Assembly (NCBI GenBank): GCA_001830425.1
Contig: MIAA01000016.1
Location: 52,253-103,883 of the forward strand
From: Rhodospirillales bacterium RIFCSPLOWO2_02_FULL_58_16
GTDB taxonomy: Bacteria; Pseudomonadota; Alphaproteobacteria; Rhodospirillales; 2-02-FULL-58-16
Length of the DNA: 51,631 nt
Direction of reading: 5' to 3'
Under the pieces are notes generated by a model. The model saw nothing but the letters and a program-made list of their open reading frames with translations, did not search any database and was not told where the DNA came from. How positions within the stretch are numbered: position 1 is the stretch's first letter; each line of letters opens with the position of its first letter. Both the position numbers and the translations under genes were made by a program. Positions 8,097 to 41,802 of the stretch are shown here, piece by piece.

Positions 8097-8130
8097 TGGA
8101 CGAAGCGGCATCTCTGGAGTACGCTGGCCT

Positions 8131-13531: not shown

Positions 13532-14527
13532 TTGAAAAACCAAAAAGTTTTCATAACCGGCGCCGACGGCTTTATCGGCTCGCATTTGGCGGAGGCCTTG
13601 GTCAAAAGCGGCGCTGAGGTCACCGCCCTTGCCCTTTACAACTCCTTTGACAGCCATGGCTGGCTGGACGATACGGACCCGGAAATCCGCCGCTCCATGC
13701 GTTTGGTCAGAGGCGACGTGCGTGATTCTCATCAGATGATCGAATTGTGCAAAGGGCAAGACGCGGTCTTCCATCTGGCCGCCCTGATCGCTATCCCCTA
13801 TTCCTACGAAGCTCCGTCCAGCTATGTGCAAACCAATGTTCAGGGCGCCGTCAATGTATTGAAGGGAGCGCTTGACGCCGGGGCATCCCGCGTCATTTGC
13901 ACGTCCACCAGCGAAGTCTACGGCACCGCCCTTTTTACCCCCATTACCGAGGACCATCCCCTGCGGGGGCAGTCCCCTTATTCCGCCTCCAAGATCGCCG
14001 CCGATATGATGGCTGAGGCTTTCGCCCGCTCCTTCGCCTTGCCGGTAATCACCCTGCGCCCCTTCAACACATATGGCCCGCGCCAGAGCGAACGGGCGGT
14101 TATCAGCACGGTCATCCGCCAGGCGCTGGATTCTCGTTGCGACGCTATCCGACTGGGTGATTTATCGCCGTCCCGCGACTTTAATTATGTAAGCGACACC
14201 GTTTCGGCCTTCCTCAAGGCCGCCGAGCTGGATGACGGCAACACAGGCAAGACATTCAACGCCGGCAGCGGACGCATGGTCGCCATCGGCGACATGGTAA
14301 AAATGACGTGCGCCATCATCGGCTGCGACAAGCCGATCATTCAGGAAGAGGCGCGCAAACGCCCGGCCGACAGCGAGGTCATGGCCCTGATGGCCGATGC
14401 CGCCAAACTTAAAGAGGCATCGGGCTGGACGCCGTCCGTCTCCCTGGAGGAAGGACTGCGACGCACCATCGACTGGTGGCGCCCCCGCATGGACCGCGTA
14501 CGGGCAGATGCAAAGTATATGGTGTAG
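13532..14527 (+). CDS. legB: LegB-like NAD-dependent sugar-nucleotide 4,6-dehydratase
   Basis: An extended SDR of 331 residues that converts a nucleotide-linked GlcNAc to its 4-keto-6-deoxy form, the first committed step toward legionaminic acid. The cofactor motif TGADGFIGSH is at residues 9-18, and the catalytic YxxxK is in SPYSASKIAAD. The segments LYNSFDSHGWLDD and AALIAIPYSYEAP are typical of LegB rather than of PseB or RmlB. The start codon is TTG (13532) with a weak ribosome-binding site; no ATG is available upstream. It is the first structural gene after the leader. The next gene, legC, starts within its 3' end. Confidence 0.92.
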   Translation: MKNQKVFITGADGFIGSHLAEALVKSGAEVTALALYNSFDSHGWLDDTDPEIRRSMRLVRGDVRDSHQMIELCKGQDAVFHLAALIAIPYSYEAPSSYVQTNVQGAVNVLKGALDAGASRVICTSTSEVYGTALFTPITEDHPLRGQSPYSASKIAADMMAEAFARSFALPVITLRPFNTYGPRQSERAVISTVIRQALDSRCDAIRLGDLSPSRDFNYVSDTVSAFLKAAELDDGNTGKTFNAGSGRMVAIGDMVKMTCAIIGCDKPIIQEEARKRPADSEVMALMADAAKLKEASGWTPSVSLEEGLRRTIDWWRPRMDRVRADAKYMV

Positions 14528-15693: not shown

Positions 15694-16846
15694 CGTCTGC
15701 GTCATCACCGGGTCGCGGGCCGAGTACGGGTTGCTGTCCTGGCTGCTCAGGGAAATCAGGGACGACGCGGACCTGGAATTGCGGCTGATAGTGACCGGCG
15801 CCCACCTGTCGCCCGAATTCGGAGAAACCTGGCGCGTCATCGAAGAAGACGGATTCGCCATCAACGCCAAAGTAGACCTTCATTTGTCCGGCGACGCCCC
15901 GCCTGATATCGCCCGGTCGATGAGCGCCGCGCTCACCGGCATGGCAAAGGCCCTCGGCGAGATCAAGCCCGATATCGCCGTCGTCCTCGGCGACCGTTTC
16001 GAGATTTTCGCCGCCGCCCAGGCCGCCATGCTGAACCGCATTCCCCTGGCCCATATTCATGGCGGCGAACTTTCCGAAGGCGCCATGGACGACGCCATGC
16101 GCCACGCCGTCACCAAAATGGCCCATCTGCACTTTGTCGCCGCCGAGCCTTACCGACGGCGCGTTATTCAACTCGGCGAAACCCCGGAGCGCGTTTTTTG
16201 CGTCGGAGCGCCGGGTCTGGATAATATCGCCTATCTTGACCTGCTGAGCAGGCCCGAGCTGGAGAACGCCATCGGCCATAAGTTGGGAAAACGGTTCCTG
16301 TTGGTCACTTATCACCCGGTAACCCTGATGGAGACATCAACGGCTATCAATGAGCTTTTGGCGACGCTGGATATGTTTCCCGACTACAATATCCTTATCA
16401 CCGGAGTGAATGCCGACCCCGGCCATAAAGATATTGCCTCCAGGCTGAAAAGCTATGCCGACGGGCAACCTGACCGCGTGTCCCTGCGCGCCTCGCTGGG
16501 GCAGTTGCGTTACCTGAGCGCCATGAAGCACGCCGCCGCCGTCATCGGCAATTCCTCCAGCGGCATTATCGAAGCGCCGGCAATAAAGACGCCGACGGTG
16601 AATATCGGCGAACGCCAGAGCGGCCGTATTCGCGGGGCGACGATCATCGATTGCGGCGAAAGCCGGAACGAAATCGCCGCCGCCGTCCGTAAAGCCGTGA
16701 GCCATGAATTCCGTGAAACCACGCAAAGCGCCGTCCATCCTTATGGAACGCCCGGCGTCGCCGCCAGAATCAAGGCCGTGCTGAAAGACTTCCCCCTGGA
16801 AGGCATCCTGGTGAAACGCTTCCACGACCTGCCGGCGGCGTCATGA
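15683..16846 (+). CDS. legG: LegG/NeuC-like hydrolysing UDP-sugar 2-epimerase
   Basis: A GT-B-fold hydrolysing 2-epimerase (387 residues) that removes the nucleotide and inverts C2 to give 2,4-diacetamido-2,4,6-trideoxymannose. Diagnostic stretches are ITGSRAEYGLLSWLLRE at the start, VLGDRFEIFAAA, IPLAHIHGGELSEGAMDD, and VIGNSSSGIIEAP for the phosphate-binding region. The ATG at 15683 begins the homologous region directly; an upstream in-frame ATG at 15623 would add 20 unlikely residues inside legC. In Campylobacter the equivalent is PtmD. It overlaps the synthase gene by four bases (ATGA), suggesting translational coupling. Confidence 0.92.
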   Translation: MTRSVCVITGSRAEYGLLSWLLREIRDDADLELRLIVTGAHLSPEFGETWRVIEEDGFAINAKVDLHLSGDAPPDIARSMSAALTGMAKALGEIKPDIAVVLGDRFEIFAAAQAAMLNRIPLAHIHGGELSEGAMDDAMRHAVTKMAHLHFVAAEPYRRRVIQLGETPERVFCVGAPGLDNIAYLDLLSRPELENAIGHKLGKRFLLVTYHPVTLMETSTAINELLATLDMFPDYNILITGVNADPGHKDIASRLKSYADGQPDRVSLRASLGQLRYLSAMKHAAAVIGNSSSGIIEAPAIKTPTVNIGERQSGRIRGATIIDCGESRNEIAAAVRKAVSHEFRETTQSAVHPYGTPGVAARIKAVLKDFPLEGILVKRFHDLPAAS

Positions 16847-17934
16847 GCGGCGTCTATATCATTGCCGAGGCCGGCGTCAACCATAACGGCGAGCTGGACA
16901 AGGCGCTGGCCTTAGTAGACGTCGCCGCCGAGGCGGGGGCCGACGCCGTCAAGTTCCAGACCTTCAAAGCCGAGAGCGTGGTCAGCGCCGACGCCCCCAA
17001 GGCCGAATACCAGAAATCCACCACCGACGTCGCCGAGTCCCAGTTGGACATGATTCGTCGCCTTGAACTGAATAAAGATCAGCACCACCGCCTGATGACG
17101 CGGTGCAAAGAGCGGGGAATTGACTTTCTTTCCACTCCCTTTGACCACGATAGTCTGCGTTTTCTCGTTGATGAGATGAAGCTCAAAACCCTTAAAATTC
17201 CTTCCGGAGAGATCACCAACGGCCCGTTATTGCTGGCGGCGGCAAGCAGCGGCGCAAAAATAATCTGCTCGACGGGCATGAGTTCCATGGAAGAGGTCGC
17301 CGACGCCCTGGGAGTCTTCGCCTTCGGCTACGCCATGCCCGGCAAGCCTCCCTCCCGCGACGCCTTCGGCCAAGCCTTCGCCTCGGCGGCGGGCAAGACT
17401 GCGCTGAAAGAGAACGTCGCCCTGTTGCACTGCACCACCGAATATCCGGCCCCGTTTGAGGATATCAACCTGAGAGCCATGGACGCCCTGGCCGAAACCT
17501 TTGATCTGCCGGTCGGTCTTTCCGATCATTCCGCAGGTATTGCCGTCGCCATCGCCGCCGCCGCTCGCGGCGCGGCAATAATTGAAAAACACTTCACCCT
17601 TGACCGATCTCTTCCCGGCCCCGACCATAAAGCCTCGCTGGAGCCGGGAGAACTCAAGGAAATGATAACGGCCATCCGCCATGTGACCGCCGCGCTGGGA
17701 GACGGCGTTAAACAAATCAGACCGTCGGAAACCGCCAATCTTTCTATCGCCCGCAAAAGCTTGTTCGCGGCGAAGGACATCCGCAAGGGGGAGATCATTA
17801 CCGCCGATCACCTGACGGCCATGCGCCCGGGAACCGGCGTTTCGCCCATGGAATACTGGCGGCATATAAACAAACCCGCCGAATGCGATATTGCTGAAGG
17901 CGAAATGATTCAATCGGCGCGAAAGAAGAATTGA
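16843..17934 (+). CDS. legI: LegI-like nonulosonic acid synthase (NeuB family)
   Basis: Condenses the six-carbon N-acetyl sugar with phosphoenolpyruvate to form the nine-carbon acid. The 363-residue protein has the NeuB TIM barrel (YIIAEAGVNHNGELDKAL, AVKFQTFKAE, LKIPSGEITNGPLL, CSTGMSSMEEV, TEYPAPFEDINLRAM, GLSDHSAGI) and a C-terminal antifreeze-like SAF domain from about residue 290 (ARKSLFAAKDIRKGEIIT). This is the usual layout and length for the family. Legionaminate rather than sialate or pseudaminate is inferred from the neighbouring legB, legC and legG. It is followed after one base by the amidotransferase gene. Confidence 0.93.
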   Translation: MSGVYIIAEAGVNHNGELDKALALVDVAAEAGADAVKFQTFKAESVVSADAPKAEYQKSTTDVAESQLDMIRRLELNKDQHHRLMTRCKERGIDFLSTPFDHDSLRFLVDEMKLKTLKIPSGEITNGPLLLAAASSGAKIICSTGMSSMEEVADALGVFAFGYAMPGKPPSRDAFGQAFASAAGKTALKENVALLHCTTEYPAPFEDINLRAMDALAETFDLPVGLSDHSAGIAVAIAAAARGAAIIEKHFTLDRSLPGPDHKASLEPGELKEMITAIRHVTAALGDGVKQIRPSETANLSIARKSLFAAKDIRKGEIITADHLTAMRPGTGVSPMEYWRHINKPAECDIAEGEMIQSARKKN

Positions 17935-17935
17935 A

Positions 17936-19162
17936 ATGACCAAACCTAACGTACCCGAGGCCTTTTACGGCCTGCCCCAGGAAGTGACGTACTGCACAAA
18001 ATGCATCATGTCGAACCAGCGGCCGTCCTCGTACCCGGAGTTCCGCCACACCATAAAGCGCAAGACCCCCAGCCTCAACATCTGGGGTGACGGCATCTGT
18101 GACGCCTGCCGTTGCAATGAAAAGAAAGAACAGATCGACTGGAAAGCGCGTGAGGAGGAGCTTCTCATCCTTCTTGACAAGCATCGCCGCGCCGACGGCG
18201 GTTACGATTGTCTGGTTCCGGGCAGCGGCGGCAAGGATAGCTGCATCGCCGCCCATCTCCTGAAGTACAAATACGGCATGAACCCGTTGACCGTAACCTG
18301 GCCGCCGATTCTTTATACGGACATCGGATTGAAAAATTTCCGTTCGTGGATCGAAATCGGCGGCTTTGACAACATCTCCTTCAAGCCCAATGGCCGCGCC
18401 CAGAAGCTGCTGACCCGGCTTTCCATCGAGAACCTGTTTCACCCGTTTCAGACCTTTATCCTCGGGCAAAAAAATCTGGCGCCGAAGATGGCCGCGAAGT
18501 TTGATATTCCGTTGGTCTTTTACGGCGAGTCGGAAGCCGAGTACGGCAACCCCATCGCCGAATCGACATCGGCGCGCCGCGATGAGTCATACTTCTCGGC
18601 AGACGACCTTTCCGAAGTCTATCTGGCCGGAGTGGCGGTGCCTGAACTGATCGAAAAGCACGGACTCACCCTTAACGAGCTGTCGCCATACTTTCCGCCC
18701 GCCCCGCAGGAACTCCGGGAAAAGAAAATTCAGGTCCACTATCTCGGCTACTACACCAGATGGACGCCCCAGGAGGCTTACTATTACGCCGTCGAGAACA
18801 CCGGCTTTGAGGCCAATCCGATAAGAACCGAAGGCACCTACAGCAAATACAACAGCCTGGACGACAAAATCGACGGCTTCCACTACTACACTACCTGGAT
18901 CAAGTTCGGCCTCGGCCGCGCCACCTACGACGCCAGCCAGGAAATCCGCAACAAGCACATCACCAGGGAAGAAGGCATCGCCCTGGCCAAGCGTTTCGAC
19001 GGCGAGTTCCCCGAACGTTATTTCAAGGATGTGATGGATTACATTGAAATGGAGCCTGAACACTTCCTCAAGATTCAAGACAAGTTCCGCTCCCCCCACC
19101 TGTGGATGCAAGACGGCGATAAATGGGTCTTGCGTCATCCCGCATGGGAAAATGAAGCCTGA
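17936..19162 (+). CDS. N-acetyl sugar amidotransferase (PseA/PtmG/WbuX family)
   Basis: A PP-loop ATP pyrophosphatase of 408 residues that activates an N-acetyl group and exchanges it for an amidine, producing acetamidino nonulosonates. The nucleotide motif is PGSGGKDSC, near residue 97. Two cysteine clusters near the N-terminus (YCTKCIMS and CDACRC) suggest a zinc site, as known in the family. HisH/HisF-type ammonia-supplying partners, which accompany WbuX in some O-antigen loci, are not seen here, as in Campylobacter where PseA/PtmG stand without them. Its position directly after legI supports a legionaminic acid amidino derivative, but the substrate is inferred. Confidence 0.87.
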   Translation: MTKPNVPEAFYGLPQEVTYCTKCIMSNQRPSSYPEFRHTIKRKTPSLNIWGDGICDACRCNEKKEQIDWKAREEELLILLDKHRRADGGYDCLVPGSGGKDSCIAAHLLKYKYGMNPLTVTWPPILYTDIGLKNFRSWIEIGGFDNISFKPNGRAQKLLTRLSIENLFHPFQTFILGQKNLAPKMAAKFDIPLVFYGESEAEYGNPIAESTSARRDESYFSADDLSEVYLAGVAVPELIEKHGLTLNELSPYFPPAPQELREKKIQVHYLGYYTRWTPQEAYYYAVENTGFEANPIRTEGTYSKYNSLDDKIDGFHYYTTWIKFGLGRATYDASQEIRNKHITREEGIALAKRFDGEFPERYFKDVMDYIEMEPEHFLKIQDKFRSPHLWMQDGDKWVLRHPAWENEA

Positions 19163-19165
19163 TTA

Positions 19166-19804
19166 ATGAACAGACCCGTTATAATCATCGGTGCCGGCGG
19201 CCATGCCAAGGTCGTTATTGACGCCTTGTTGCTGATCGGCATCAAAGTTTTCGCCGCCGCCGACATCGACCCCGCCAGACGAGGACAATCTATCCTGAGC
19301 ATCCCCATCATCGGGGAAGACCGCATCGCCGCCGAGCACGCCCCTGATTCCGTCATGCTGGCGAACGGCATAGGCTCCACTGGAAACCCGAAGGCCCGGC
19401 GGGCGGTTTTCTACCGCTTCAAAAAGCTTGGATACGTTTTCAGAACAGTTATCCATCCCTCCGCCGTCATCGCCAGAGACGTGGAAATCGGCGAAGGGTG
19501 TCAAATCATGGCCGGAGTCGTCATCCAGACCGGCGTCAGGACCGGCATCAACAGCATCATCAACACGCGCTCATCGGTGGATCACGACTGCCGGATCGGC
19601 GATCACGTTCATATTGCGCCGGGGGTTACCTTATCCGGAGCCGTAATTATCGGCGACGGCGCTCATTTAGGCAGCGGCGCGACGGTCATCCAGGAATGTT
19701 CCATAGGCAATGACTGCATAATCGCCGCCGGAGCGGTGGTTGTCGATAATGTCGCGCCCGGAATCGTTGTCCGTGGCGTTCCCGCCAAAAAAGCTATGCT
19801 GTGA
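19166..19804 (+). CDS. NeuD/PglD-like sugar O- or N-acetyltransferase
   Basis: A 212-residue protein with an N-terminal Rossmann-like substrate domain (IIIGAGGHAKVVIDALLLIG) and a C-terminal left-handed beta helix of hexapeptide repeats (VIARDVEIGEGCQIMAGVVI). The catalytic histidine is likely in SSVDHDCRIGDHVHIAPG. It is the expected acetyl-CoA-dependent acetyltransferase of the cassette. It may be LegH, which acetylates the 4-amino group before LegG, or a NeuD-type O-acetyltransferase acting later. No other candidate for the essential LegH step is seen in this half of the locus, so LegH is the better guess. It begins three bases after the amidotransferase stop. Confidence 0.87.
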   Translation: MNRPVIIIGAGGHAKVVIDALLLIGIKVFAAADIDPARRGQSILSIPIIGEDRIAAEHAPDSVMLANGIGSTGNPKARRAVFYRFKKLGYVFRTVIHPSAVIARDVEIGEGCQIMAGVVIQTGVRTGINSIINTRSSVDHDCRIGDHVHIAPGVTLSGAVIIGDGAHLGSGATVIQECSIGNDCIIAAGAVVVDNVAPGIVVRGVPAKKAML

Positions 19805-20715
19805 TGAAGGCGCTGGTCGTCGGCTTCGGCTCAAGCGGGGCGCGTCATGCCCGCATCCTCGCCGATATGGGCCTGAATGTGGCGGTAGCCAGCCGCCGGG
19901 TCGTAAGCGCCGCTAAAGTTTATCCGACGATTCCCATGGCGGCAGCCGACTGGAAACCCGACTATGTGGTGATCGCCGGCCGCACCGGCGAGCATCGCTC
20001 GGATTTTGCCGCCCTTGCCGGGACCGGCTTTCGCGGAAAGGTGCTTGTGGAAAAACCTCTCTTCGACGGACCGGCGACCATCCCTGAGCATCAATTTGCC
20101 GGCGTCCATGTCGCCTATAATCTGCGTTTTCATCCTGTCATCAACAGGTTGAGGGGCATCCTTAAGCAAATCCCTCCTTTGGCCGTTCACGCCTATGTCG
20201 GCCAGTATCTTCCAAAATGGCGCCCGGAAACGGATTATCGTCTCGGCTACTCGGCCCACAAAGCCGAAGGCGGCGGCGCTCTCAGGGACCTCAGCCACGA
20301 ACTGGATTACCTTAACCGGCTGTTAGGCGGATGGACCGGACTTACCGCCGCCGGAGGGCGCTTCAGCCGACTGGAAATCGACAGCGACGACATTTTTTCG
20401 ATTTTATTCAAAACTAGGGACTGCCCGATTGTTTCCCTGCAAATGAACTATCTGGACAGCACACCAAGCCGAAACATCATCGTCCTCACCGACAACGGCT
20501 CCATCCGCGCCGACCTGATCGCCGGAACTATTGATTTCGCAGGCGAAACAGAATCATTACAGACGGAGCGTGACGCGACTTATATCGCCGAGCACAAGGC
20601 GGCCTTAGCCGGCGAAAATGACATCGCCTGCTCTCTCGACGAAGGGCTGGAGGCGCTTCACATGATCGCCGCCGCCGAGAAGGCCGCCCTTGAGAATGTT
20701 TGGGTAACGAAATGA
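19804..20715 (+). CDS. Gfo/Idh/MocA-like oxidoreductase (PtmF-like)
   Basis: A NAD(P)-dependent oxidoreductase of 303 residues. It has an N-terminal Rossmann motif (ALVVGFGSSGARHARIL), the family EKP signature in KVLVEKPLFDG, and a C-terminal sheet domain (GGGALRDLSHELDYLNRLLGG). In gene order it matches ptmF of the Campylobacter legionaminic acid locus, which lies beside legF/ptmB and ptmA. The biochemical role of PtmF-type proteins in precursor supply is less certain than for the core enzymes. ATG at 19804 is preferred to GTG at 19801. It overlaps the upstream stop by one base and the next start by four. Confidence 0.8.
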   Translation: MKALVVGFGSSGARHARILADMGLNVAVASRRVVSAAKVYPTIPMAAADWKPDYVVIAGRTGEHRSDFAALAGTGFRGKVLVEKPLFDGPATIPEHQFAGVHVAYNLRFHPVINRLRGILKQIPPLAVHAYVGQYLPKWRPETDYRLGYSAHKAEGGGALRDLSHELDYLNRLLGGWTGLTAAGGRFSRLEIDSDDIFSILFKTRDCPIVSLQMNYLDSTPSRNIIVLTDNGSIRADLIAGTIDFAGETESLQTERDATYIAEHKAALAGENDIACSLDEGLEALHMIAAAEKAALENVWVTK

Positions 20716-21440
20716 AACGGCTGTGCACCATCTGCGCCCGTGGCGGCTCCAAGGGGGTCAAGGGCAAGAACCTGCGTCTGCTCGCCGGCAAGCCCTTGAT
20801 TGCCCACTCCATTGAACAAGCCCGCCAATCAGGTTTGTTCGAGGCGATCGGCGTCAGCAGCGACAGCAATGATATTTTGAAAACCGCCGATGAGTGGGGC
20901 GCCGATTACCTCGTTGAGCGACCCGCCGAAATGGCCTCGGACACGGCGGGCAAGCTTCCGGCAATTCGTCACTGCGCCGAAACGATTGAGAAACAATGCC
21001 GAACAAAATTCGATACGTTTGTTGATCTCGACTGCACCTCGCCCTTGCGGGCGGTAAAAGACATCCAGGACGCCGTCGCCCTTCTCGAAGCCGGCGGCGT
21101 CGGCATAGTGTTGACTGGAACGCCGTCCCGGCGTTCGCCCTATTTTAATCTGGTCGAGGTGGATGAACAGGGCGGGGTCCATCTCAGCAAGCCGCTGAAG
21201 ACCCCCATAGAAAGACGCCAGGACTCTCCCAAGTGCTACGATCTCAACGCCTCCATCTATGCGTGGCGCCGCCGGGCGCTTCTTTCCGGGAGCGATACGA
21301 TCTTCGGAGACGACACCCGACTGTTCATTATGCCGGAGGAACGTTCCCTCGACATTGATTGCGAACTGGATTTCCAATTCGTCGAATTTCTTTTATCCCA
21401 AGTATTGAGAGAAAAGCCATGTCTGACATCTTTGACCTGA
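20712..21440 (+). CDS. legF: CMP-legionaminic acid synthetase (LegF/PtmB-like)
   Basis: Cytidylyltransferase of the NeuA family (242 residues) that activates a nonulosonic acid with CTP. The nucleotide-binding head ARGGSKGVKGKNLR is at residues ~8-21; further typical segments are FVDLDCTSPLRAVKDIQDAV, IYAWRRRALL and PEERSLDIDCELDFQFVE, the last with metal-binding aspartates. The start at 20712 overlaps the upstream stop as ATGA; an in-frame ATG at 20700 is less likely. The setting between ptmF-like and ptmA-like genes mirrors ptmB of Campylobacter. A second, different synthetase lies at 24084. Confidence 0.9.
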   Translation: MKRLCTICARGGSKGVKGKNLRLLAGKPLIAHSIEQARQSGLFEAIGVSSDSNDILKTADEWGADYLVERPAEMASDTAGKLPAIRHCAETIEKQCRTKFDTFVDLDCTSPLRAVKDIQDAVALLEAGGVGIVLTGTPSRRSPYFNLVEVDEQGGVHLSKPLKTPIERRQDSPKCYDLNASIYAWRRRALLSGSDTIFGDDTRLFIMPEERSLDIDCELDFQFVEFLLSQVLREKPCLTSLT

Positions 21441-22231: not shown

Positions 22232-24087
22232 GCCCGTTGCAGTCTCCTTTGGAGCGGCTTGAAGACCTTAGCGAATTGTCGGTTTTGAAGCTCCCGGAAC
22301 ATATCCGGGGTCAGTACCCGCGTCTGGCCCTGATATCTCATCCCCGTCATCTGGAAAACGTAAAGCATGATGACTCGACCCTGATCGTCACTACGGACTG
22401 GCTGCAATGGCGTCAATGCGTGAGCGAAAACCGACACTGTATCCATTTTGAATGGGCGCTCGCCGAGCGCATCAACCCGGAAATAAAGGAAGGCGAACTT
22501 TACCTGCACTATAACGACTGGGCCAAGGTGGACGGCGTCGATGTCACCGAATTTCATGGCGTTTCGCTGGCAACCCTTTTCTGGCGCGAGGTGACGTTGG
22601 CGTGTCGCGCTTACGACCGGCTTTCCCATGCCCTGGATCGAATTTGCCTGCATTTCGGGCCTTCCGAGATAATCCTTTACGACTTACGATCAGACTATGA
22701 CCTTCTGGACCCCCATATCCGGCGCGATCTGGTCCGCGAAACAGCGGATCGTCACGGCGCCGTCCTCGTTGACAGGCATGACCCTGCGGCGCCCGAAACC
22801 ACCCTTTACGGCGTCCGTATTGAGGAGCCGCAGTTACGCGAGTTTCTTCGAGGTTGCTACGCCATGGCTGTGGGGGCCGCCTTCGGCCTGCTGTGGCGGC
22901 TAAGAAGCGGCAAGCCGAAAGTCTTTTTATTCAATAACGCCGCCGTTATGGATGCTTTGCTGGAAAAGAGCCGAGACGCCGCCGTGGCCCCGGTCATTCT
23001 GGCGGAACAATGGCCCAAGTCGCTGCGCTTCCTTCGATCATGCCGGCAAAATGGTGTCGTTCTCGCCGAACTGCCCCGAGCCTCTTTAACCGGCGCCGAT
23101 AAGGCGGCCTTACGGGCTATGACGCAAAAGCTCTTTAAGTCATGGTCCGCCCCTGCAAGCGGTCTTGAGAAAGCCCGTCGCGCCTTCATCAAGGAAAGGT
23201 GTATTGACTCCGGATTGCTTCGTGACCGCGCCGCGAGGGTCAAGCGCTACAACGCCTTTATGAAGCGCCATCAATTCCGTCGCGTAATGGTCGGCGACAT
23301 TACAAATACGGAATGCCGCATTATTGCCGAGACAGCCCGCGTTCACAACGCTCCTTTCGATGAACTGCTCAATGGGATGTTTCTGACCGACCGGCAAAAC
23401 GACGCCCGCATCGCCCGGGGGGGAAACAATCGTCTGCTGGCCAGAGGAGCCGTCGACGAAAGATGGGCGCAAAAATCCGCTTTCGGCCTGAAGCGCCTTC
23501 GCGCCGGCTATCCTCCTGACGGCGCATGGAGACAAAAACCGGAAACGATGCCGCCGAGGCAAAATAATTGGCTGATCATGCCTTGTTACACGGACGGCGA
23601 CGACAGCCGAGGACTCATGTCCAACATGTTTTCAACGCTGGTGGATGTTGTCAGGACATTAACCGATCTCGGATATAAAAACATCCGCATCAAGCTGCAC
23701 CCCGGAATGCCGAAACAAAAGGCGTATTTTGAAAAAATACTGACCTTTCACAAATTAAATTATCCGGTTTTTCAGGACGGCGGATTGATTGATCATATTT
23801 ATTGGGCCGATTTTGTGGCCGGACCGATAGGGTCCGGCGCCCTGCTGGAAACCTTGGGGGCGGGACGTTCTTATTTCGCTTTCCGCCCCTGGCCCACCGG
23901 CATCAACCCCGCGTATTTTGAAAACACCCCCATCATGTCCTCGGTGGCGGATTTACGGCGCGCCCTGAAAAGCGGCATGAAGCCGGACGCAACAGCCATT
24001 CTCCAGGATTTTTGTTCCATGGATGATATCCCCGATTCCGTCGGCTGCGTTTGGAAAGCATTGGCGGAAAGCAACGAGGCGGCATGA
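22216..24087 (+). CDS. Large uncharacterised protein, putative GT-B glycosyltransferase
   Basis: I do not recognise this 623-residue protein as a named family. It appears soluble apart from a weakly hydrophobic stretch around residue 220 (CYAMAVGAAFGLLWRL). The C-terminal third looks like the nucleotide-sugar half of a GT-B enzyme: NWLIMPCYTDGDDSRG, then NIRIKLHPGMPKQKAYFEK, then DFVAGPIGSGALLETLGAGR, the last resembling the glycine-rich donor loop of capsule-type glycosyltransferases. Its place directly after the CMP-legionaminate genes makes it a candidate nonulosonic acid transferase. The start GTG at 22216 overlaps the SDR stop by 16 bp; GTG at 22225 is an alternative. It is followed by a second CMP-sugar synthetase with ATGA overlap. 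Confidence 0.65.
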   Translation: MDGVVSPLQSPLERLEDLSELSVLKLPEHIRGQYPRLALISHPRHLENVKHDDSTLIVTTDWLQWRQCVSENRHCIHFEWALAERINPEIKEGELYLHYNDWAKVDGVDVTEFHGVSLATLFWREVTLACRAYDRLSHALDRICLHFGPSEIILYDLRSDYDLLDPHIRRDLVRETADRHGAVLVDRHDPAAPETTLYGVRIEEPQLREFLRGCYAMAVGAAFGLLWRLRSGKPKVFLFNNAAVMDALLEKSRDAAVAPVILAEQWPKSLRFLRSCRQNGVVLAELPRASLTGADKAALRAMTQKLFKSWSAPASGLEKARRAFIKERCIDSGLLRDRAARVKRYNAFMKRHQFRRVMVGDITNTECRIIAETARVHNAPFDELLNGMFLTDRQNDARIARGGNNRLLARGAVDERWAQKSAFGLKRLRAGYPPDGAWRQKPETMPPRQNNWLIMPCYTDGDDSRGLMSNMFSTLVDVVRTLTDLGYKNIRIKLHPGMPKQKAYFEKILTFHKLNYPVFQDGGLIDHIYWADFVAGPIGSGALLETLGAGRSYFAFRPWPTGINPAYFENTPIMSSVADLRRALKSGMKPDATAILQDFCSMDDIPDSVGCVWKALAESNEAA

Positions 24088-24785
24088 TTGACGGCAAAAA
24101 GGTATTGGCGGTGATCACCGCTCGCGGCGGCTCCAAAGGACTGCCGCGCAAAAATATCCTTGAAGTGGGCGGCCGCCCGATGCTGGCGTGGAGCGTCGAC
24201 GCCGCCGAAAAATCAAGTCTTTTGGATAGAACTATTCTGTCATCAGACGACGACGAAATTATTCGGGTAGGCAGGGAATGGGGATGTGACGTCCCCTTCA
24301 AACGACCGCTTGAGCTTGCGCACGATGAAACCTCGACCGAGCATGCGCTTATTCACGCCCTCGATCATCTTGAAGAAACCTATGATTATATTGTGCTTCT
24401 GCAACCTACTTCACCCTTACGCGAGGCGCAGGATATCGACAACTGCATCACGACATGCCGCCGACGCGGCGTCCCCGCCTGCGTCTCCGTATGCAAAACC
24501 GAAAAATCACCCTACTGGATGTTTCAGATAGATGGTCAGGGACGCATGTCGCCGTTTTTGAAAAAAGACGGACCTTGGCACCAACGCCAGAATCTGCCCG
24601 CCGCCTATGCCGCCAACGGCGCCGTCTATGTGGCGGAAGTTCCATGGTACAGGAAAAACCAGACGTTTTACGCCCCGGATACAGCGGCCTATGTCATGCC
24701 TCCCGAACGATCAATCGACGTGGACACCGAACTGGATTTACTGCTGGTCGAAACCATCATGCAGGCGCGGCGTAAACCGTTTTGA
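24084..24785 (+). CDS. Second acylneuraminate-type cytidylyltransferase
   Basis: A 233-residue CMP-nonulosonate synthetase distinct from the one at 20712. Motifs are TARGGSKGLPRKN, LLQPTSPLREAQDIDN, AANGAVYVAEV and PERSIDVDTELDLLLVE. The sequence is NeuA/NeuA-like rather than KdsB, and the active-site head is intact. A second synthetase in one locus suggests that two different nonulosonic acids are activated, or that one of the enzymes has changed specificity. The ATG at 24084 overlaps the stop of the putative glycosyltransferase, which suggests a functional link between the two. The following galE gene overlaps its end by four bases. Confidence 0.88.
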   Translation: MIDGKKVLAVITARGGSKGLPRKNILEVGGRPMLAWSVDAAEKSSLLDRTILSSDDDEIIRVGREWGCDVPFKRPLELAHDETSTEHALIHALDHLEETYDYIVLLQPTSPLREAQDIDNCITTCRRRGVPACVSVCKTEKSPYWMFQIDGQGRMSPFLKKDGPWHQRQNLPAAYAANGAVYVAEVPWYRKNQTFYAPDTAAYVMPPERSIDVDTELDLLLVETIMQARRKPF

Positions 24786-25783
24786 ACATAAAGGCCAAGC
24801 CCATACCCCGCCCCATCCTCGTCACCGGCGGCGCCGGCTATATCGGCAGCCACACGGTGCTGGCCCTGGTCGCCGCCGGCATACCGGCAGTCGTCCTTGA
24901 CGACCTGTCCACGGGAAGCCGGGATATGGTCCCCGAGGGCGTCCCCTTTGTTCAGGGAAACGTCGCCGACATGGCGCTGGTGCGGCGAACGCTCAGGGAA
25001 AACCAATGTTGCGGCATAATGCATTTTGCCGGGTCGATCATCGTTCCTGAATCCGTCCACGACCCGCTGAAATATTACCGCAACAACGCCGAAGCCGGCC
25101 GGGCACTGATCGAGGCGGCGCTGGCGGAAAATATCAAGACCTTTATCTTCTCATCAACCGCTTCCGTTTACGGTCGCCCCAAAACCGTTCCCATCAATGA
25201 GGATGCGCCGACGGCGCCGGAAAACCCCTATGGCTTTTCAAAACTGATCATCGAGAGAATATTGAAAGACGTTTCCTCGGCCCATGGCCTTAGTTACGCC
25301 GCCTTGCGTTATTTCAACGTCGCCGGCGCCGACGCAAAAGGCCGCGCCGGTCAGGTCGGCCCCCAATCGACCCATCTGATCAAGATCGCCGTCGAGACGG
25401 TTCTCGGGCGGCGCCGGCATATGGAAATTTTCGGCGACGACTATGATACGCCCGACGGCGCCTGCATCCGTGACTACATCCATGTCAGCGATCTGGCGGA
25501 CGCTCATGTCAAGGCCTTCAATCATCTTTTGAACGGAGGCGATAACTTGATTCTGAATTGCGGCTATGGCCGGGGCGCCTCGGTGCGCGAGGTTTTGAAC
25601 GCCGTACAAAAAGTTTCCGGTCAAACCCTTGATATCCGCATCGCGCCGCGCCGTCCCGGCGATGTCCCCGAACTGGTGGCCGATGTCACGCGCATTCGGA
25701 AAATCCTCGGCTGGGTTCCCCGCTTTACCGACCTTGACGTCATCATTCGCACCGCCCTGGAATGGGAACGGAAACGAGCGTGA
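24782..25783 (+). CDS. galE: UDP-glucose/UDP-GlcNAc 4-epimerase (GalE-like)
   Basis: Extended SDR of 333 residues that interconverts UDP-Glc/UDP-Gal or the N-acetyl forms. TGGAGYIGSHTVLALV is near residue 15, SSTASVYGRPKTVP carries the catalytic serine, and PYGFSKLIIERILKD the YxxxK. LRYFNVAGADAKGRAGQVGP and RDYIHVSDLADAH are typical of true GalE. The start is TTG, overlapping the upstream TGA as TTGA, with the Rossmann motif some 15 residues in; no better start is near. It presumably supplies galactose- or GalNAc-type precursors to the surface glycan. The downstream gene starts with an overlapping GTGA. Confidence 0.92.
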   Translation: MNIKAKPIPRPILVTGGAGYIGSHTVLALVAAGIPAVVLDDLSTGSRDMVPEGVPFVQGNVADMALVRRTLRENQCCGIMHFAGSIIVPESVHDPLKYYRNNAEAGRALIEAALAENIKTFIFSSTASVYGRPKTVPINEDAPTAPENPYGFSKLIIERILKDVSSAHGLSYAALRYFNVAGADAKGRAGQVGPQSTHLIKIAVETVLGRRRHMEIFGDDYDTPDGACIRDYIHVSDLADAHVKAFNHLLNGGDNLILNCGYGRGASVREVLNAVQKVSGQTLDIRIAPRRPGDVPELVADVTRIRKILGWVPRFTDLDVIIRTALEWERKRA

Positions 25784-26535
25784 AAATCGTCGCCATAATT
25801 CCCGCCCGCCTCGGCTCGTCGCGATTCCCCGGCAAGCCGCTGGCGCCGTTGCTCGGCAAAACCATGATTGAGCACGTCTACAGGCGCACCGCCATGAGCA
25901 AGTCTCTCCTGGGGGTCTATGTCGCCACCTGTGATGAAAAAATCCGCGATGCGGTCGAAGGCTTCGGCGGCAAGGCGGTGATGACCTCAAACCGCCACGA
26001 GCGGGCTGGCGACCGCGTCGCCGAGGCCATTGAGGGCATCGAGGCCGATGTGGTGGTCATGGTCCAGGGCGATGAACCGATGACGCGCCCGGACATGATC
26101 GACGAGGCGACGGCGCCCTTCGGCAATAACCCGGATATTTCCTGCGTCAATTTGACTACGCGCATAGAAAGCATGGATGAATTCAACAACCCCAACACCA
26201 TCAAGGTGGCAATCGACCGGACCGGCAATGCCCTTTACTTCTCGCGCCGGCCGATTCCTTACGCCGTTGAGGCAAACTTCGCGGCGATAACCCCGTACAA
26301 GCAGGTATGCATCATCCCGTTCAGCCGCCAGGCTCTGAAGACATTTTCGGCGCTGAAGCCGACGCCCCTGGAGATAGCCGAATCCATCGACATGTTGCGT
26401 TTCCTTGAACACGGTTATCCGGTGCGCATGGTGGAAACCCGCTTCAACACCCACGCGGTGGACACCCCCGAGGATCTGACCCGTGTGGAAAAATTGATGA
26501 CTCATGATCCCTTAACCGAAAGCTATTCGTCATGA
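25780..26535 (+). CDS. kdsB: CMP-KDO synthetase family protein (KdsB-like)
   Basis: 3-deoxy-manno-octulosonate cytidylyltransferase family, 251 residues. The head IIPARLGSSRFPGKPLAPLL, QGDEPMTRPDMID, CVNLTTRI and TPEDLTRVEKLM match KdsB. GTG at 25780 is chosen because it begins the conserved sequence and overlaps the galE stop; ATG at 25762 would add six residues. Because it lies within a surface-glycan operon rather than with lipid A genes, it may be a secondary copy that activates KDO or a related sugar acid for this glycan. KDO synthesis genes (kdsA, kdsC, kdsD) are not in the window. Confidence 0.87.
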   Translation: MKIVAIIPARLGSSRFPGKPLAPLLGKTMIEHVYRRTAMSKSLLGVYVATCDEKIRDAVEGFGGKAVMTSNRHERAGDRVAEAIEGIEADVVVMVQGDEPMTRPDMIDEATAPFGNNPDISCVNLTTRIESMDEFNNPNTIKVAIDRTGNALYFSRRPIPYAVEANFAAITPYKQVCIIPFSRQALKTFSALKPTPLEIAESIDMLRFLEHGYPVRMVETRFNTHAVDTPEDLTRVEKLMTHDPLTESYSS

Positions 26536-27473
26536 CCTGGAAAATTCTGATCAGCGCCCCCTACATGCTGCCGGCAATCGACCGCTTTTCCGATTTTTTC
26601 GTAAAAAATAATATGGAAATCGTCCCGGCAAAGGTGAAAGAGCGGCTGGAAGAAGAAGATTTGCTGGGCATTGTTTCCGACATTGACGGCGTCATTTGCG
26701 GCGATGACCGCTTCACCGACCGGGTGCTGGCGGCAGCCCCCAGACTCAAGGTCATCGCCAAATGGGGCACAGGCATCGATTCCATAGACAAGGAAGCGGC
26801 GGAAAGGCGGGGCATCCGCATTTGCCGGACGCCGGACGCCTTCACTCACCCGGTGGCCGACAGCGCGCTCGGCTACATTCTCGCCTTCGCCCGGCGTCAA
26901 CCCTGGATGGACGCCCAGATGAAACAGGGAATCTGGGACAAAATTCCGGGACGGGCGCTCAATGAATGTTCGCTGGGAGTCATCGGCGTCGGCAATACCG
27001 GCACGGCGACCCTGCGCCGCGCCAAGGCTTTCGGCATGAAGCTGCTGGCTAACGACATCCGCGAGATTAACCCGAACCTCATTGAAGAACTGGGCGTCGG
27101 GATGGTCTCCAAGGACGATCTGTTCGCCGGCGCCGACTTCGTCAGCATCAACTGCGACCTCAACCCGACCTCATATCGCCTGATGGGGGCGCCGCAATTC
27201 GCGGCGATGAAGAAGACTGCGGTGTTTATCAATCTGGCGCGAGGACCGATAGTCGATGAGCCGGCCCTTATTGACGCCCTTCAACAGGGATTGATCGCCG
27301 GCGCCGCGCTAGATGTTTTTGAATGTGAGCCTCTGCCCAGGAATAGTCCGCTGCTTAAAATGGACAATGTCATGACGGCGCCCCACAACTCCAACTCAAG
27401 CCCCAAGGCGTGGGAGCGGGTGCATTGGAGCACCCTCAATCAGCTTCTTAACGCTCTTAATGAAGCAGCGTAG
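26532..27473 (+). CDS. D-2-hydroxyacid dehydrogenase (phosphoglycerate dehydrogenase-like)
   Basis: NAD-dependent D-isomer-specific 2-hydroxyacid dehydrogenase of 313 residues. The catalytic set is present: Arg in NLARGPIVDEPALID, Glu in DVFECEPLP and His in TAPHNSNS. The NAD-binding GVIGVGNTGTATLRRA is near residue 155. It lacks a C-terminal ACT domain, so it is not a regulated serine-pathway SerA. The four-base overlap with the KdsB-like gene and the position before a GT2-dehydrogenase fusion suggest that it reduces or oxidises a sugar-acid or glycerate-like precursor of the glycan; that is an inference. Confidence 0.88.
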   Translation: MTWKILISAPYMLPAIDRFSDFFVKNNMEIVPAKVKERLEEEDLLGIVSDIDGVICGDDRFTDRVLAAAPRLKVIAKWGTGIDSIDKEAAERRGIRICRTPDAFTHPVADSALGYILAFARRQPWMDAQMKQGIWDKIPGRALNECSLGVIGVGNTGTATLRRAKAFGMKLLANDIREINPNLIEELGVGMVSKDDLFAGADFVSINCDLNPTSYRLMGAPQFAAMKKTAVFINLARGPIVDEPALIDALQQGLIAGAALDVFECEPLPRNSPLLKMDNVMTAPHNSNSSPKAWERVHWSTLNQLLNALNEAA

Positions 27474-27481: not shown

Positions 27482-29407
27482 GTGGAAACCTCGATCATCG
27501 TCCGCATGTTCAATGAAGAAAAGCATTTGAACAGGCTTTTCGATGGTTTTGACCGCCAGACATATAAAGACTTCGAGGTTATCGCCGTGGATTCGGGATC
27601 GCTGGATCGGTCCCGTGAAATCGCCGGCAAGCGGGCCGCCCGTCTGGTCTGCATCAACAGCCACGATTTCACCTACGGCTATTCACTGAATGCCGGAATC
27701 AAAGAGGCGCAAGGACGCTTCATCGCCATCGCCTCGGCCCACACCATCCCTGAGAACGATCATTGGCTGGAAAATCTGATTGCTCCCTTAAGGGAAGAAA
27801 AAACGGCGATGTCCTACGGTCGGCAAATCGGCGCGGCTTGCTCGAAATTCAGCGAGAACGAAGACTACAAGCGCATGTTCGGCGACCAAAAACTTTTTGA
27901 ATCGATGGAGCGCCTCGCCGTCAACAACGCCAATTCCGCAATCCGCAAAGAACTGTGGGAGCAATACCCCTTCGACGAAAAACTCCTCGGACTGGAGGAT
28001 ATCGACTGGGCGAAGCATTGGATGGCGCGAGGATATAAAGCGGCCTACGAGCCTGCTGCCGTTCTTAAACATATCCACGAAGAAACATGGGGGCAGATCC
28101 GCCGCCGCGCCTACCGGGAAGCGGTATCTTTCAGAAGAATCGGCATCAAGAGCCGCGCCTCCGCTCCTAGAGAACTGATGCGGGAAATATTTTTCACTTT
28201 AAGTGATTTCTATAATGCCGTGACCGTTAATGATAATCCGGTAAGCGCCCGCTTGACGCCGGGACAGCGAATGCGCGAAATCATTTATTACCGCCTGCAT
28301 AAAAACACAGGCGCTCTCAAGGGACTACTGGAATCGCATCCCCTTGAAACGCGGGAATCACAGGAAAAGGTCTTTTTCGACCGCCCCACCGAAGCCGTTG
28401 TTATTCATGGCCCCAACCGGGCCGCTTTCGAGGAACTGAAAATCCCTGAGATAAAGCCGGGCGATGTCTTGATTCGCGTCGCCCATGTGGCGGTCTGCGC
28501 CACCGACCTGGAGATTTTCAGCGGCGCCCTCGGCTATTACAAAAACGGCATGGCCAAGTACCCCATCGTTCCCGGCCACGAATTCAGCGGCCGCGTCGTC
28601 GCCGTTGGCCGGAACGTCAAAAACCTTGCCGAACAGACGCCGGTAGTCGTCGAATGCATCCAGAGTTGCGGAATCTGCGGGGAATGCCGATCCGGCAACT
28701 TCATCGGTTGCGGGGAACGGGCCGAACTGGGCGTTTTAAGACGTAACGGCGCCTATGCCGGTTATGTGAGCGCGCCGGCGCGCTTTGTCCATAAGCTGCC
28801 GCAAACCATGGACTTGCGCCGGGCCGCCCTCGCCGAACCGCTGGCGGTGGTCTTGAAGAGTCTGCGCCGATTGACTCCGTTGCTTGGTGCCAAGTCGGGG
28901 CGGCGACATTGCTTCGTCGTCGGCGCCGGTCCGCTGGGCCACATGTTCGCCAAAACGCTGGCCCATTTCGGCCATGAAGTCACCGCTTTTGACCGCAACC
29001 CCAAACGCCGCGCCCTGTTCGATGGAACAGGCATAAAAAGTTCCGACTGTCTGGACGACCTCGCAAAATTCAATGTCATTATCGAGATCACCGGCGACCC
29101 GGAAGTGCTGGACAAGGTTCTTCACCTAAGCCCGGCCGACGCCTCCATATTGTTGCTGGGACTGCCCTACGGCAAGAAGCCGTTTTCCTTTGAGGCCGTA
29201 ACCGCCTATGACAAGACGGTCGTCGGTTCCGTCGGCAGTACGGCGGAAGATTTTGAAGAAGCGATCAAGCTGCTTGATAAGCTGGATCTTGACGCCTATC
29301 TCCAATGCCCTATGAGGCTTGATGATTTTCACGCCGCATGGGAAAAAAGCAAGAGTGGCGATGTGCTCAAGGTAATCCTTGATGTGGATGAAGTTACCCG
29401 ACAATGA
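27482..29407 (+). CDS. Fusion of GT2 glycosyltransferase and zinc-dependent alcohol dehydrogenase
   Basis: One uninterrupted 641-residue frame joins two enzymes. Residues 1 to ~290 are a GT-A family 2 glycosyltransferase (SIIVRMFNEEKHLNRLFDGF, VIAVDSGSLDRSREIA, GLEDIDWAKHWMARGY as the ED motif). From ~303 a medium-chain dehydrogenase follows. Its catalytic zinc ligands are in HVAVCATDLEIFSG and VPGHEFSGRVV, its structural zinc cysteines in SCGICGECRSGNF plus a later Cys, and its cofactor motif is VVGAGPLGHMFAKTLA. Both halves look complete. The start is GTG, eight bases after the upstream stop. Making and transferring a sugar in one polypeptide is a plausible role; substrates are unknown. A sequencing frameshift is not needed to explain it. 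Confidence 0.85.
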   Translation: METSIIVRMFNEEKHLNRLFDGFDRQTYKDFEVIAVDSGSLDRSREIAGKRAARLVCINSHDFTYGYSLNAGIKEAQGRFIAIASAHTIPENDHWLENLIAPLREEKTAMSYGRQIGAACSKFSENEDYKRMFGDQKLFESMERLAVNNANSAIRKELWEQYPFDEKLLGLEDIDWAKHWMARGYKAAYEPAAVLKHIHEETWGQIRRRAYREAVSFRRIGIKSRASAPRELMREIFFTLSDFYNAVTVNDNPVSARLTPGQRMREIIYYRLHKNTGALKGLLESHPLETRESQEKVFFDRPTEAVVIHGPNRAAFEELKIPEIKPGDVLIRVAHVAVCATDLEIFSGALGYYKNGMAKYPIVPGHEFSGRVVAVGRNVKNLAEQTPVVVECIQSCGICGECRSGNFIGCGERAELGVLRRNGAYAGYVSAPARFVHKLPQTMDLRRAALAEPLAVVLKSLRRLTPLLGAKSGRRHCFVVGAGPLGHMFAKTLAHFGHEVTAFDRNPKRRALFDGTGIKSSDCLDDLAKFNVIIEITGDPEVLDKVLHLSPADASILLLGLPYGKKPFSFEAVTAYDKTVVGSVGSTAEDFEEAIKLLDKLDLDAYLQCPMRLDDFHAAWEKSKSGDVLKVILDVDEVTRQ

Positions 29408-31143
29408 CGCATATAATAATTCTCAACGAGATAACGGTTTTCCGGTTTGTGTTATTGTGCCTGTTTCGTAGAAAAGTTTATGTCCTTTGTATTGATCCTT
29501 TGTTTTTCATTCTGCAGCGCCCACTCCAAATGGTTCTCGTCTGGTCGATCAGATCCGGACGGGCGCACGATCTGATCGAACTGTGCCCCGACCTCCAACA
29601 TGTCAAGGACAGACATTCAGAGGTCTATCTGTATAATGTTTTCGGAAAAATCGAGCCGTGGATAAACGACTATTTCGACTTTGCAAAGGTGGACCGAATC
29701 ATTCCCGATTATGCCATGGCGTATAAGAATGTCGTATGTAAGCACTTCGACTGGAGATTCATCTTTATTCTTACACTGGCGGCGGCATTGGACAAACCGG
29801 AACTAGCGGGGGCAAAAGTCAAGGGATTGCCTCCCGCCATGCTGCAAGCCATGAATGTTTATGCCGAGCGTTCGTGTTTCAAGGACATCACCCCACGAAC
29901 TTCCCTTTACCACCCGGCGGTCAATATGCTCGCCGCCGTCGCCATAGCCGTCTATGCCTGCGCCTGGATAATTTCGCGCGTACGGCCCTTTGGGTTCCGA
30001 CATGAAACCTTTTTTTTCGCAGCGGATTATCTGGGCGATCCACGTGATGTTCACCTTTACCGGGAAATTGCGGACGGTGGGCCGATATTACTGGTTATCA
30101 GGTGTTTGTCCGGCCACCCCCTTGAAGAAGAAACGCTCAACACCTACCGCACATGTAATTCCAAGGATGGACTATTGACGATTCGGGATGGCATTGAATT
30201 ATCGGCGCTTGCAATGAGAGACACATTCCGCCTTTTTAAACATTTTCGGTCCATGGATCCTGCCGTTTTCTTCCAGATCGCCACCCTGCCGCACCGCAGA
30301 ACGATGCTGCGGGCATTATTCTCGCGCTTCACGCCGGAATATTTCTGGGGACGCGACGAATACAATGTGGAGCACATACTAAGGCGTCAGGAGTTGAACC
30401 GCATCGGCAAACACTCATATGGGGTCTGCCTGGGCTTTGGCCCATATGCCGATCTCTTGGCCCCGTTTCGCTACATAAATTACGACCGCTACTATGTCTT
30501 CGGAAAAATTCTTCAAGAGATATATAAAGACACATGGGCGAAGGACATGGCCGTCGTGCCGTCAGGAACGTTTGGAGCATCCAGAAAGGATTATATGTGC
30601 ATGGGCGATCCTCGTCCCAATGACATAGCCGTTCTCGCCGGTCTTTTCACCAACTCCTCAATTTTTGTAGAAATCGTGCGAAGTCTTGCAACGGCATTTC
30701 CCGAACGCACCATTTGGCTGCAAGTAAAGGCCAATTACGCCGGTATGAAACGTGGTATAGATTTTGTCAACGCCTGTAGCTGCGGCCTTACAAATGTTGT
30801 TTATACCCGCGATCCTATTTTCGACATTTTCAAACGGGTGACTTTCGCCTTTTCAGACCCCTCAACCGTGGTTATTGAGGCTATGCAATTCGGTTTGGCG
30901 TCATTCATGCTCGATATTTCGGACATCCATGAGGTTTGCATATTCAGGAATTTTCCGGGAATTTGCGTAAAATCCGCCGAAGAAGCCATAATGCGGGTCA
31001 AGAATCTGGAATCCGGGGATTGGAAATACCCCAGAGAAAGTTACGCCGATCTTATCGATCTTTCAGGACGAGTTTTCTTCGATATCGTCAGAGAAGACAT
31101 CGGCTTGCCGCCAGAATTCAAAAGCGTGAACAACAGCATATAA
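29404..31143 (+). CDS. Uncharacterised protein (579 aa), possible glycosyltransferase
   Basis: I cannot name its family. There are two hydrophobic stretches, near the N-terminus (VFRFVLLCLF to VLCIDPLFFILQ) and around residue 180-195 (VNMLAAVAIAVYACAWIISR), so it may associate with the membrane. The C-terminal part has a GT-B-like look: IWLQVKANYAGMKRGIDF, then FAFSDPSTVVIEAMQFGLAS, which resembles the donor-binding loop of capsule glycosyltransferases. Composition is clearly more AT-rich than the leg genes, pointing to a different origin. It overlaps the fusion gene by four bases (ATGA). After it a 71-bp spacer with no visible signal precedes the radical SAM gene. Confidence 0.55.
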   Translation: MTHIIILNEITVFRFVLLCLFRRKVYVLCIDPLFFILQRPLQMVLVWSIRSGRAHDLIELCPDLQHVKDRHSEVYLYNVFGKIEPWINDYFDFAKVDRIIPDYAMAYKNVVCKHFDWRFIFILTLAAALDKPELAGAKVKGLPPAMLQAMNVYAERSCFKDITPRTSLYHPAVNMLAAVAIAVYACAWIISRVRPFGFRHETFFFAADYLGDPRDVHLYREIADGGPILLVIRCLSGHPLEEETLNTYRTCNSKDGLLTIRDGIELSALAMRDTFRLFKHFRSMDPAVFFQIATLPHRRTMLRALFSRFTPEYFWGRDEYNVEHILRRQELNRIGKHSYGVCLGFGPYADLLAPFRYINYDRYYVFGKILQEIYKDTWAKDMAVVPSGTFGASRKDYMCMGDPRPNDIAVLAGLFTNSSIFVEIVRSLATAFPERTIWLQVKANYAGMKRGIDFVNACSCGLTNVVYTRDPIFDIFKRVTFAFSDPSTVVIEAMQFGLASFMLDISDIHEVCIFRNFPGICVKSAEEAIMRVKNLESGDWKYPRESYADLIDLSGRVFFDIVREDIGLPPEFKSVNNSI

Positions 31144-41789: not shown

Positions 41790-41802
41790 GAGCCGTTTTT
41801 TA

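Follow-up and report, generated by a model that had tools for sequence, protein, structure and literature searches.

A conserved fusion of a GT2-type glycosyltransferase with a zinc alcohol dehydrogenase in Rhodospirillales and its possible role in a CMP-sugar acid cassette

3-Deoxy-D-manno-oct-2-ulosonic acid (Kdo) and the sialic acids are made by condensation reactions that depend on phosphoenolpyruvate (PEP). Glycosyltransferases (GTs) that use sugars activated with cytidine monophosphate (CMP) usually lack the DxD metal motif, and those that use CMP-sialic acid are generally metal-independent; we know of no CMP-sugar-acid donor for a GT family of the GT2 type. Here we describe a gene in a 51,631-nucleotide stretch of contig MIAA01000016.1 of the Rhodospirillales bacterium RIFCSPLOWO2_02_FULL_58_16 (hereafter the window) in which a GT2-type glycosyltransferase is joined in one open reading frame to a zinc-dependent alcohol dehydrogenase (ADH) of the medium-chain dehydrogenase/reductase (MDR) type. 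The two-domain architecture, GT2-ADH, is virtually certain to be real and conserved, and probably represents a new, bifunctional combination of domains within known enzyme families. The best overall explanation of its sequence and gene context, to which we assign a rough probability of 0.4, is that of a two-headed enzyme in a surface-glycan pathway that would both help to make an acidic sugar and attach it.

The locus was compared with the closest described systems. The GT half shares its family (PF00535, over cut-off) and the ED pair with GT2 glycosyltransferases such as GalT1 (5hea) but carries S-A-H instead of DxD, while the ADH half has the MDR domains, the zinc lobe, the catalytic zinc residues, the dinucleotide motif and the predicted fold in common with sorbitol dehydrogenase, L-threonine 3-dehydrogenase, HpsP and glucose dehydrogenase and differs from these zinc-dependent enzymes in following a glycosyltransferase on the same chain. 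The cytidylyltransferase of the cassette retains the family and the cytidine triphosphate (CTP)-side motifs GSSRxPGK and QGDEP of the KdsB/KpsU CMP-Kdo synthetases, whereas the H-x-G-I-Y-A and LEQLR segments are changed and a KdsB with the usual segments is encoded elsewhere in the genome. The neighbouring 2-hydroxyacid dehydrogenase (2HADH) shares the fold family and the R-E-H residues with 2-ketogluconate/glyoxylate reductase and phosphoglycerate dehydrogenase but forms a subfamily of its own, marked by an APHNSNSSP-type signature wherever the cassette copies could be read that far. Legionaminic acid clusters share the LegB-, LegC-, NeuC- and NeuB-like and CMP transferase genes found upstream; the KdsB-2HADH-GT2-ADH cassette comes on top of these and, to our knowledge, is not part of any described cluster of this kind.

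The initial annotation of the window had proposed a natural fusion of the two enzymes, and 641 open codons together with 16 full-length fused proteins bear this out. The same domain pair was found, full-length and without a stop, in 14 of the 317 genomes of the order; one further genome carried a copy cut by a contig end and two carried the GT half only. A scan of named genomes added a Desulfobacterales chromosome (L004, 6.97 Mb) and a contig of a Rhodospirillaceae metagenome-assembled genome (L005), giving the total of 16, the window protein included. An assembly error or missed stop was ruled out because the fusion recurs in finished genomes: one carrier (G899) is a single contig of 4,551,873 bases and another (G033) an assembly of two contigs. 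Nor are relatives always split, the other outcome that would have undone the proposal; the halves were not found as neighbouring separate genes when the ADH half served as a tblastn query against 11 fusion-free loci, one of them (G017) readable in part only (lowest E 0.44). The GTG start lies 8 bases 3' of the stop of the previous gene and the TGA overlaps the ATG of the following gene (ATGA), which places the fusion gene within an operon-like run.

At an E value of 1e-60, the own genome was the sole match in sparse samples of the class (385 genomes) and phylum (398 genomes), some of whose members belong to the order; this points to rarity outside the order. The fusion is thus rare overall, concentrated in the Rhodospirillales and seen once outside the phylum. 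Among plasmids, 2279 records matched some part of the query and none reached 80% query coverage, and no relative of the fusion was found in the viral contigs searched. Searches of the open-access literature yielded no paper in which 'glycosyltransferase domain' occurs together with 'alcohol dehydrogenase domain', and within those searches the architecture looks undescribed.

Family searches delimited the two halves. Pfam placed Glycos_transf_2 at residues 4-128 (70.6 bits; cut-off 23.3), followed by ADH_N at 325-441 (89.3 bits) and ADH_zinc_N at 484-599 (45.7 bits), in that order and both over cut-off, with Glu_dehyd_C at 448-634 (41.1 bits; cut-off 34.9). The structure predicted from a 30-row alignment, which replaced an earlier 7-row model (pLDDT, the predicted local distance difference test, 67.6), had a mean pLDDT of 90.2 and a predicted template modelling score (pTM) of 0.60. 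Its low-confidence stretch at residues 291-300 marks the linker, so that the second half begins near residue 303, as first annotated. Matches to the ADH half took up the fold-match lists of the whole model; in the GT half pLDDT was mostly above 85. For the ADH half, Foldseek returned the (S)-2,3-dihydroxypropane-1-sulfonate dehydrogenase HpsP (E 1.8e-26) and L-threonine 3-dehydrogenase (E 2.3e-26), and VIA-align returned sorbitol dehydrogenase (Z 39.5, root-mean-square deviation 2.4, 337 residues aligned), rows within 1 of this score being tied with it.

The dehydrogenase half is apparently an intact enzyme of the zinc and NAD type, since all the zinc ligands are present and, like the three glycines of the dinucleotide motif, invariant (Table 1). 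From the family we take C339 to be a catalytic zinc ligand and H366-E367 to belong to the catalytic zinc site, and E452 is presumably a further ligand as in sorbitol and threonine dehydrogenases. P484 of the dinucleotide motif is replaced by C in five and by S in one of the 16 fused proteins; downstream of it, D504-R505 is invariant in all 16 and suggests NAD rather than NADP as the cofactor. Across 100 related genomes the fused ADH halves scored 385-771 bits and the closest unfused dehydrogenases at most 104 bits.

Identity to the window protein was 52-65% over GT residues 1-240 and 51-70% over the ADH half. The GT half had been annotated as a complete GT-A domain, a description that its length and predicted fold support and that has to be amended at one site: the DxD motif of metal-dependent GT-A enzymes is absent, its usual place being taken by S-A-H in every fused protein and by S-A-H or S-G-H in seven unfused or cut rows as well. 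Since transferases using CMP-sialic acid generally need no metal, the missing DxD fits a CMP donor. The ED pair presumably holds the catalytic base. The closest solved relative by sequence was a weak match (E no better than 6.7e-10). A second kind of GT fusion was also seen: a more distant GT2 relative (L092 9556-10983, genome G163) is joined to a CTP_transf_3 cytidylyltransferase domain, an arrangement that would couple activation of the donor with its transfer. Another such relative, in genome G111, has a C-terminal part related to that protein.

The history of the fusion was traced with a 28-row tree of the GT part (support from the Shimodaira-Hasegawa-like approximate likelihood ratio test only). 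The 16 fused rows, a cut row (L006) and two GT-only proteins of one genus (G051 and G031) formed one clade (support 97; 96 for the group within it that holds all but L004), and the Chloroflexi, Rhodobacterales and more distant rows fell outside it. Because fused rows and the G051 and G031 proteins, which extend about 40 residues beyond the GT part, share this single clade, the simplest account is a single fusion event, the ADH half then being lost once in that genus. The GT half stands alone also in a Chloroflexi contig, three Rhodobacterales plasmids and G282, and an ADH gene was not found in any of these GT-only loci, those of G051 and G031 included. In G282 and the three plasmids the lone GT half precedes genes for a NeuA-like CMP transferase and a 2HADH. 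Two more genes are contiguous with this run in G282: that of a short-chain dehydrogenase/reductase (SDR), for which glucose 1-dehydrogenase and aldose dehydrogenase are among the highest-scoring models, each below its cut-off, and that of an SMP-30 gluconolactonase; the same pair lies next door or some kilobases off in Thalassovita and Sulfitobacter, and hence nearby in three of four unfused relatives, Gemmobacter being the fourth. An SMP-30 gene was not found in the fused loci tested, so the SDR and SMP-30 pair may stand in for the ADH and a PF04199-family hydrolase of the fused loci.

This hydrolase belongs to a recurrent cassette of GalE, PF04199 hydrolase, KdsB-like cytidylyltransferase, D-2-hydroxyacid dehydrogenase and, last, GT2-ADH. 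The window itself has GalE, the KdsB-like gene, the 2HADH and GT2-ADH, set within a cluster of the legionaminic-acid type, and family searches agree with the names that its neighbours had first been given. The 2HADH gene lies immediately 5' of the fusion in 14 of the 16 fused loci; in G006 the pair falls on two contig ends, and in G901 the 2HADH is elsewhere. Beside the cassette the hydrolase was found in 10 of 16 fused loci, and elsewhere in the genome in G033, G901 and G903; for L005 it was sought on its 9.8-kb contig only. Counted by genome, a close hydrolase occurred in 12 of 14 with the fusion and in 6 of 302 others of the order (Fisher P 1e-15, which ignores kinship); seven of the 14 are of one genus, so the genomes are not independent, and a hand count by genus gave 6 of 8 against 5 of 107. 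'Close' means at least 46% identity and E no higher than 6.1e-59, plus a contig-cut match in G838, limits set after the data had been seen, whereas PF04199 matches at E 1e-15 were listed for 26 of 317 genomes. The 302 leave out G807, where the contig ends in the gene, and include among the six G017, which is unreadable beyond the 2HADH start and may hold the fusion. The solved structures nearest to the PF04199 protein are metal-dependent hydrolases, kynurenine formamidase and isatin hydrolase.

A KdsB-family gene is present in the cluster in all 16 fused loci, 11 copies being of the window type and five, from one genus and 18-2044 bases downstream of the fusion, of another type. The window protein scored 310 bits with PRK13368 (cut-off 255) and 150.0 with TIGR00466, below the cut-off of 155.2. 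We take the H-x-G-I-Y-A-[YF]-R and L-E-Q-L-R segments of KdsB to form the Kdo-binding side. LEQLR is altered in all 16 cassette proteins, and the 11 of the window type also lack the H of H-x-G-I-Y-A, an H being kept in the other five; the window protein reads KQVCIIPF and SIDMLR at these places, and its counterparts do so with small changes. The third of the three KdsB relatives of the genome (contig C32) keeps HIGIYAFR and LEQLR. Because these segments are altered, the cassette enzyme is probably not a Kdo enzyme, and this assignment was set aside. The accessible part of PMC3149649 describes Kdo binding by the C-terminal domain of KdsB. The second relative, about 40% identical to the first, lies about 0.9-5 kb beyond the window end on contig C16 (L030 1285-4662), joined by a HAD-like phosphatase (named by eye) and another 2HADH (32%), perhaps as a sister cassette.

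Gene order and residues together make it likely that the fusion belongs to a cassette for a CMP-activated acid other than Kdo. The initial annotation had the ADH half oxidise or reduce a sugar or polyol that the same protein then transfers; the gene context agrees in part and is more specific, pointing to a CMP-activated acid with the ADH acting early. In the route that we propose, the ADH half would oxidise an aldose at C1 to a lactone; galactose is a candidate because GalE is often next door. The PF04199 hydrolase of most relatives, or the SMP-30 gluconolactonase of the unfused ones, would open the lactone to an aldonic acid, which the 2HADH would oxidise at C2 to a 2-keto-aldonic (hex-2-ulosonic) acid, a reaction known in reverse for 2-ketogluconate reductases of its family. 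The KdsB-like enzyme would then convert the keto acid to its CMP derivative, and the GT half, with no DxD, would transfer it to a glycan. The architecture and gene order are observed facts, and each chemical step is our conjecture; the exact lactone and 2-keto-aldonate route is tentative, with the odds somewhat against it. Taken in full, it would be a new CMP-2-keto-aldonate pathway that starts directly from an aldose, with two dehydrogenases and a lactonase, no PEP-dependent condensation, and a fusion that couples its first and last steps; in this strong form it is rather doubtful. A 4-deoxy-2-hexulosonic acid in an Escherichia coli K3 capsule is cited in PMC10433991; the part of PMC12409901 that could be consulted held nothing on hexulosonic acids, and a route of synthesis for the acid was not found described within the open-access literature.

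Several observations weigh against the two-headed enzyme, above all the missing hydrolase of this genome, the loss of the ADH half in G051 and G031 and the wide range of substrates in the ADH family. Neither a PF04199 hydrolase of the cassette family in the genome of the window (0 matches at E 1e-8) nor an SMP-30 match in the window itself was found, which leaves the lactonase step unaccounted for here; G1038 has a weak PF04199 match only, and the hydrolase is close to kynurenine formamidase and isatin hydrolase rather than to a proven lactonase. Threonine, sorbitol and sulfonate dehydrogenases are as near to the ADH half as glucose dehydrogenases are. G051 and G031 retain KdsB, 2HADH and GT, with the ADH absent from the loci read, which implies that its step is dispensable or replaceable. 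The Chloroflexi locus combines KdsB-2HADH-GT2 with a UDP-glucose dehydrogenase and no ADH, the Gemmobacter stretch has no annotated SDR or lactonase nearby, and the pTM of 0.60 leaves the mutual placement of the two halves undefined.

The loss in G051 and G031 is what would be expected if the ADH half served decoration only, acting after or beside transfer on a nucleotide sugar or on the transferred residue, for example a keto sugar, while KdsB and 2HADH made another residue. This idea, close to that of the initial annotation, also draws on the covalent joining, which makes the product or donor of the GT the nearest substrate, and on the likeness of the ADH half to polyol and sugar-alcohol dehydrogenases; the co-occurrence of hydrolase and fusion and the SDR with gluconolactonase of unfused relatives fit an early oxidation better, and we regard it as somewhat unlikely. 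The absence of ADH from G051, G031 and other unfused relatives would likewise suit a non-catalytic passenger kept for folding or assembly, but the zinc ligands, the motif glycines and D504-R505 are invariant in all 16 proteins and conservation is about equal in the two halves, so that a passenger role is very improbable.

Two further proposals assign the cassette a different product. It might make a hydroxy-acid or amino-acid-like substituent of a nonulosonic acid, with acids of three to four carbons activated by the CMP transferase, as the best named models would allow (phosphoglycerate dehydrogenase for the 2HADH, L-threonine 3-dehydrogenase for the ADH and arylformamidase for the hydrolase, all below cut-offs); the gluconolactonase-type protein of the unfused relatives speaks against this, as does the fact that the KdsB and NeuA relatives, as far as is known, activate sugar acids of eight to nine carbons, and we judge it distinctly unlikely. 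Alternatively, the cytidylyltransferase might activate a phosphonate whose side chain the dehydrogenases build. A PEP mutase that scores above the cut-off of its family is encoded in the genome (contig C36, 553-codon frame), phosphonate-type ATP-binding cassette transporter genes were named by eye at 7158-10282 of the window, and nucleotidyl activation is the main route of bacterial phosphonate tailoring according to the accessible part of PMC6697681. This reading is weakened by the finding of a PEP mutase over cut-off in only three of the 14 fused genomes, with none in seven, including the one-contig G899, and it can be given hardly any weight.

The features of the locus are collected in Table 1. 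Within the cluster at 13532-21440, models of the LegC family, NeuC, NeuB, WbuX and NeuD were matched over cut-off, whereas the LegB-like protein (416 bits; cut-off 475) and the CMP transferase fell below; judged from genes alone, the sugar would be of the legionaminic-acid type. In several loci a homologue of the 579-residue protein is encoded immediately after the fusion or close behind it, and a 623-residue protein at 22216-24087, likewise without a Pfam or NCBIfam match, also recurs in these clusters. Elsewhere in the window are a radical SAM-like protein (31215-32864; many B12-type radical SAM families matched, below cut-off), a second one named by eye and by similarity to other loci (41776-43242), and a Y1/IS200-like transposase domain protein (PF01797) on the minus strand (4564-5406). 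A pair of genes for a TIM-barrel isomerase-like protein and an SDR is kept in four clusters (window 37883-39462, L025 3412-5032, L047 11771-13401 and L102 624-2212).

Table 1. Features of the GT2-ADH locus, with positions counted from the first letter of the window.
Feature	Position	Strand	Basis or remark
Legionaminic-acid-type cluster	13532..21440	+	LegB-, LegC-, NeuC-, NeuB-like, N-acetyl sugar amidotransferase, NeuD-like, oxidoreductase, second CMP transferase
NeuA/PseF-like CMP-nonulosonate cytidylyltransferase	24051..24785	+	TIGR03584 156 bits, below cut-off 205.7
UDP-glucose 4-epimerase GalE	24782..25783	+	TIGR01179, 424 bits
KdsB-like cytidylyltransferase	25762..26535	+	Family-model search; exact start uncertain
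D-2-hydroxyacid dehydrogenase	26532..27473	+	PF00389/PF02826; R237, E264, H285 present; signature APHNSNSSP
GT2-ADH fusion gene	27482..29407	+	641 aa; open-reading-frame reading, GTG start 27482, TGA stop 29407
GT2-type glycosyltransferase half, residues 1-290	27482..28351	+	Pfam PF00535, PF13641
S85-A86-H87 at usual DxD place	27734..27742	+	Invariant in 16/16 fused proteins
E172-D173 (ED pair)	27995..28000	+	Invariant in 23/23 rows
Linker, flexible, residues 291-301	28352..28384	+	pLDDT <50 at 291-300
Zinc alcohol dehydrogenase (MDR) half, residues 302-641	28385..29404	+	Pfam, Foldseek, VIA-align
C339 (with T341, D342)	28496..28498	+	Invariant in 16/16
H366-E367 (GHE motif)	28577..28582	+	Invariant in 16/16
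Structural zinc lobe C396, C399, C402, C410	28667..28711	+	Invariant in 16/16
E452	28835..28837	+	Invariant in 16/16
Dinucleotide motif G481-x-G483-P484-x-G486	28922..28939	+	Three Gly invariant in 16/16
579-aa protein, next cassette gene	29404..31143	+	No Pfam or NCBIfam match

The pathway suggested by the fusion would be new if true. With it, bacterial surface glycans would gain a new class of activated sugar acid, and a GT2-type family would be seen to use a CMP-sugar acid with no DxD metal site. Furthermore, it would draw a KdsB paralogue, a 'phosphoglycerate dehydrogenase' and a 'cyclase', all loosely annotated, into one route in relatives with finished genomes. Whatever the chemistry, an old fusion of a glycosyltransferase and a dehydrogenase, apparently of single origin, offers a clean case of pathway steps held in one protein.

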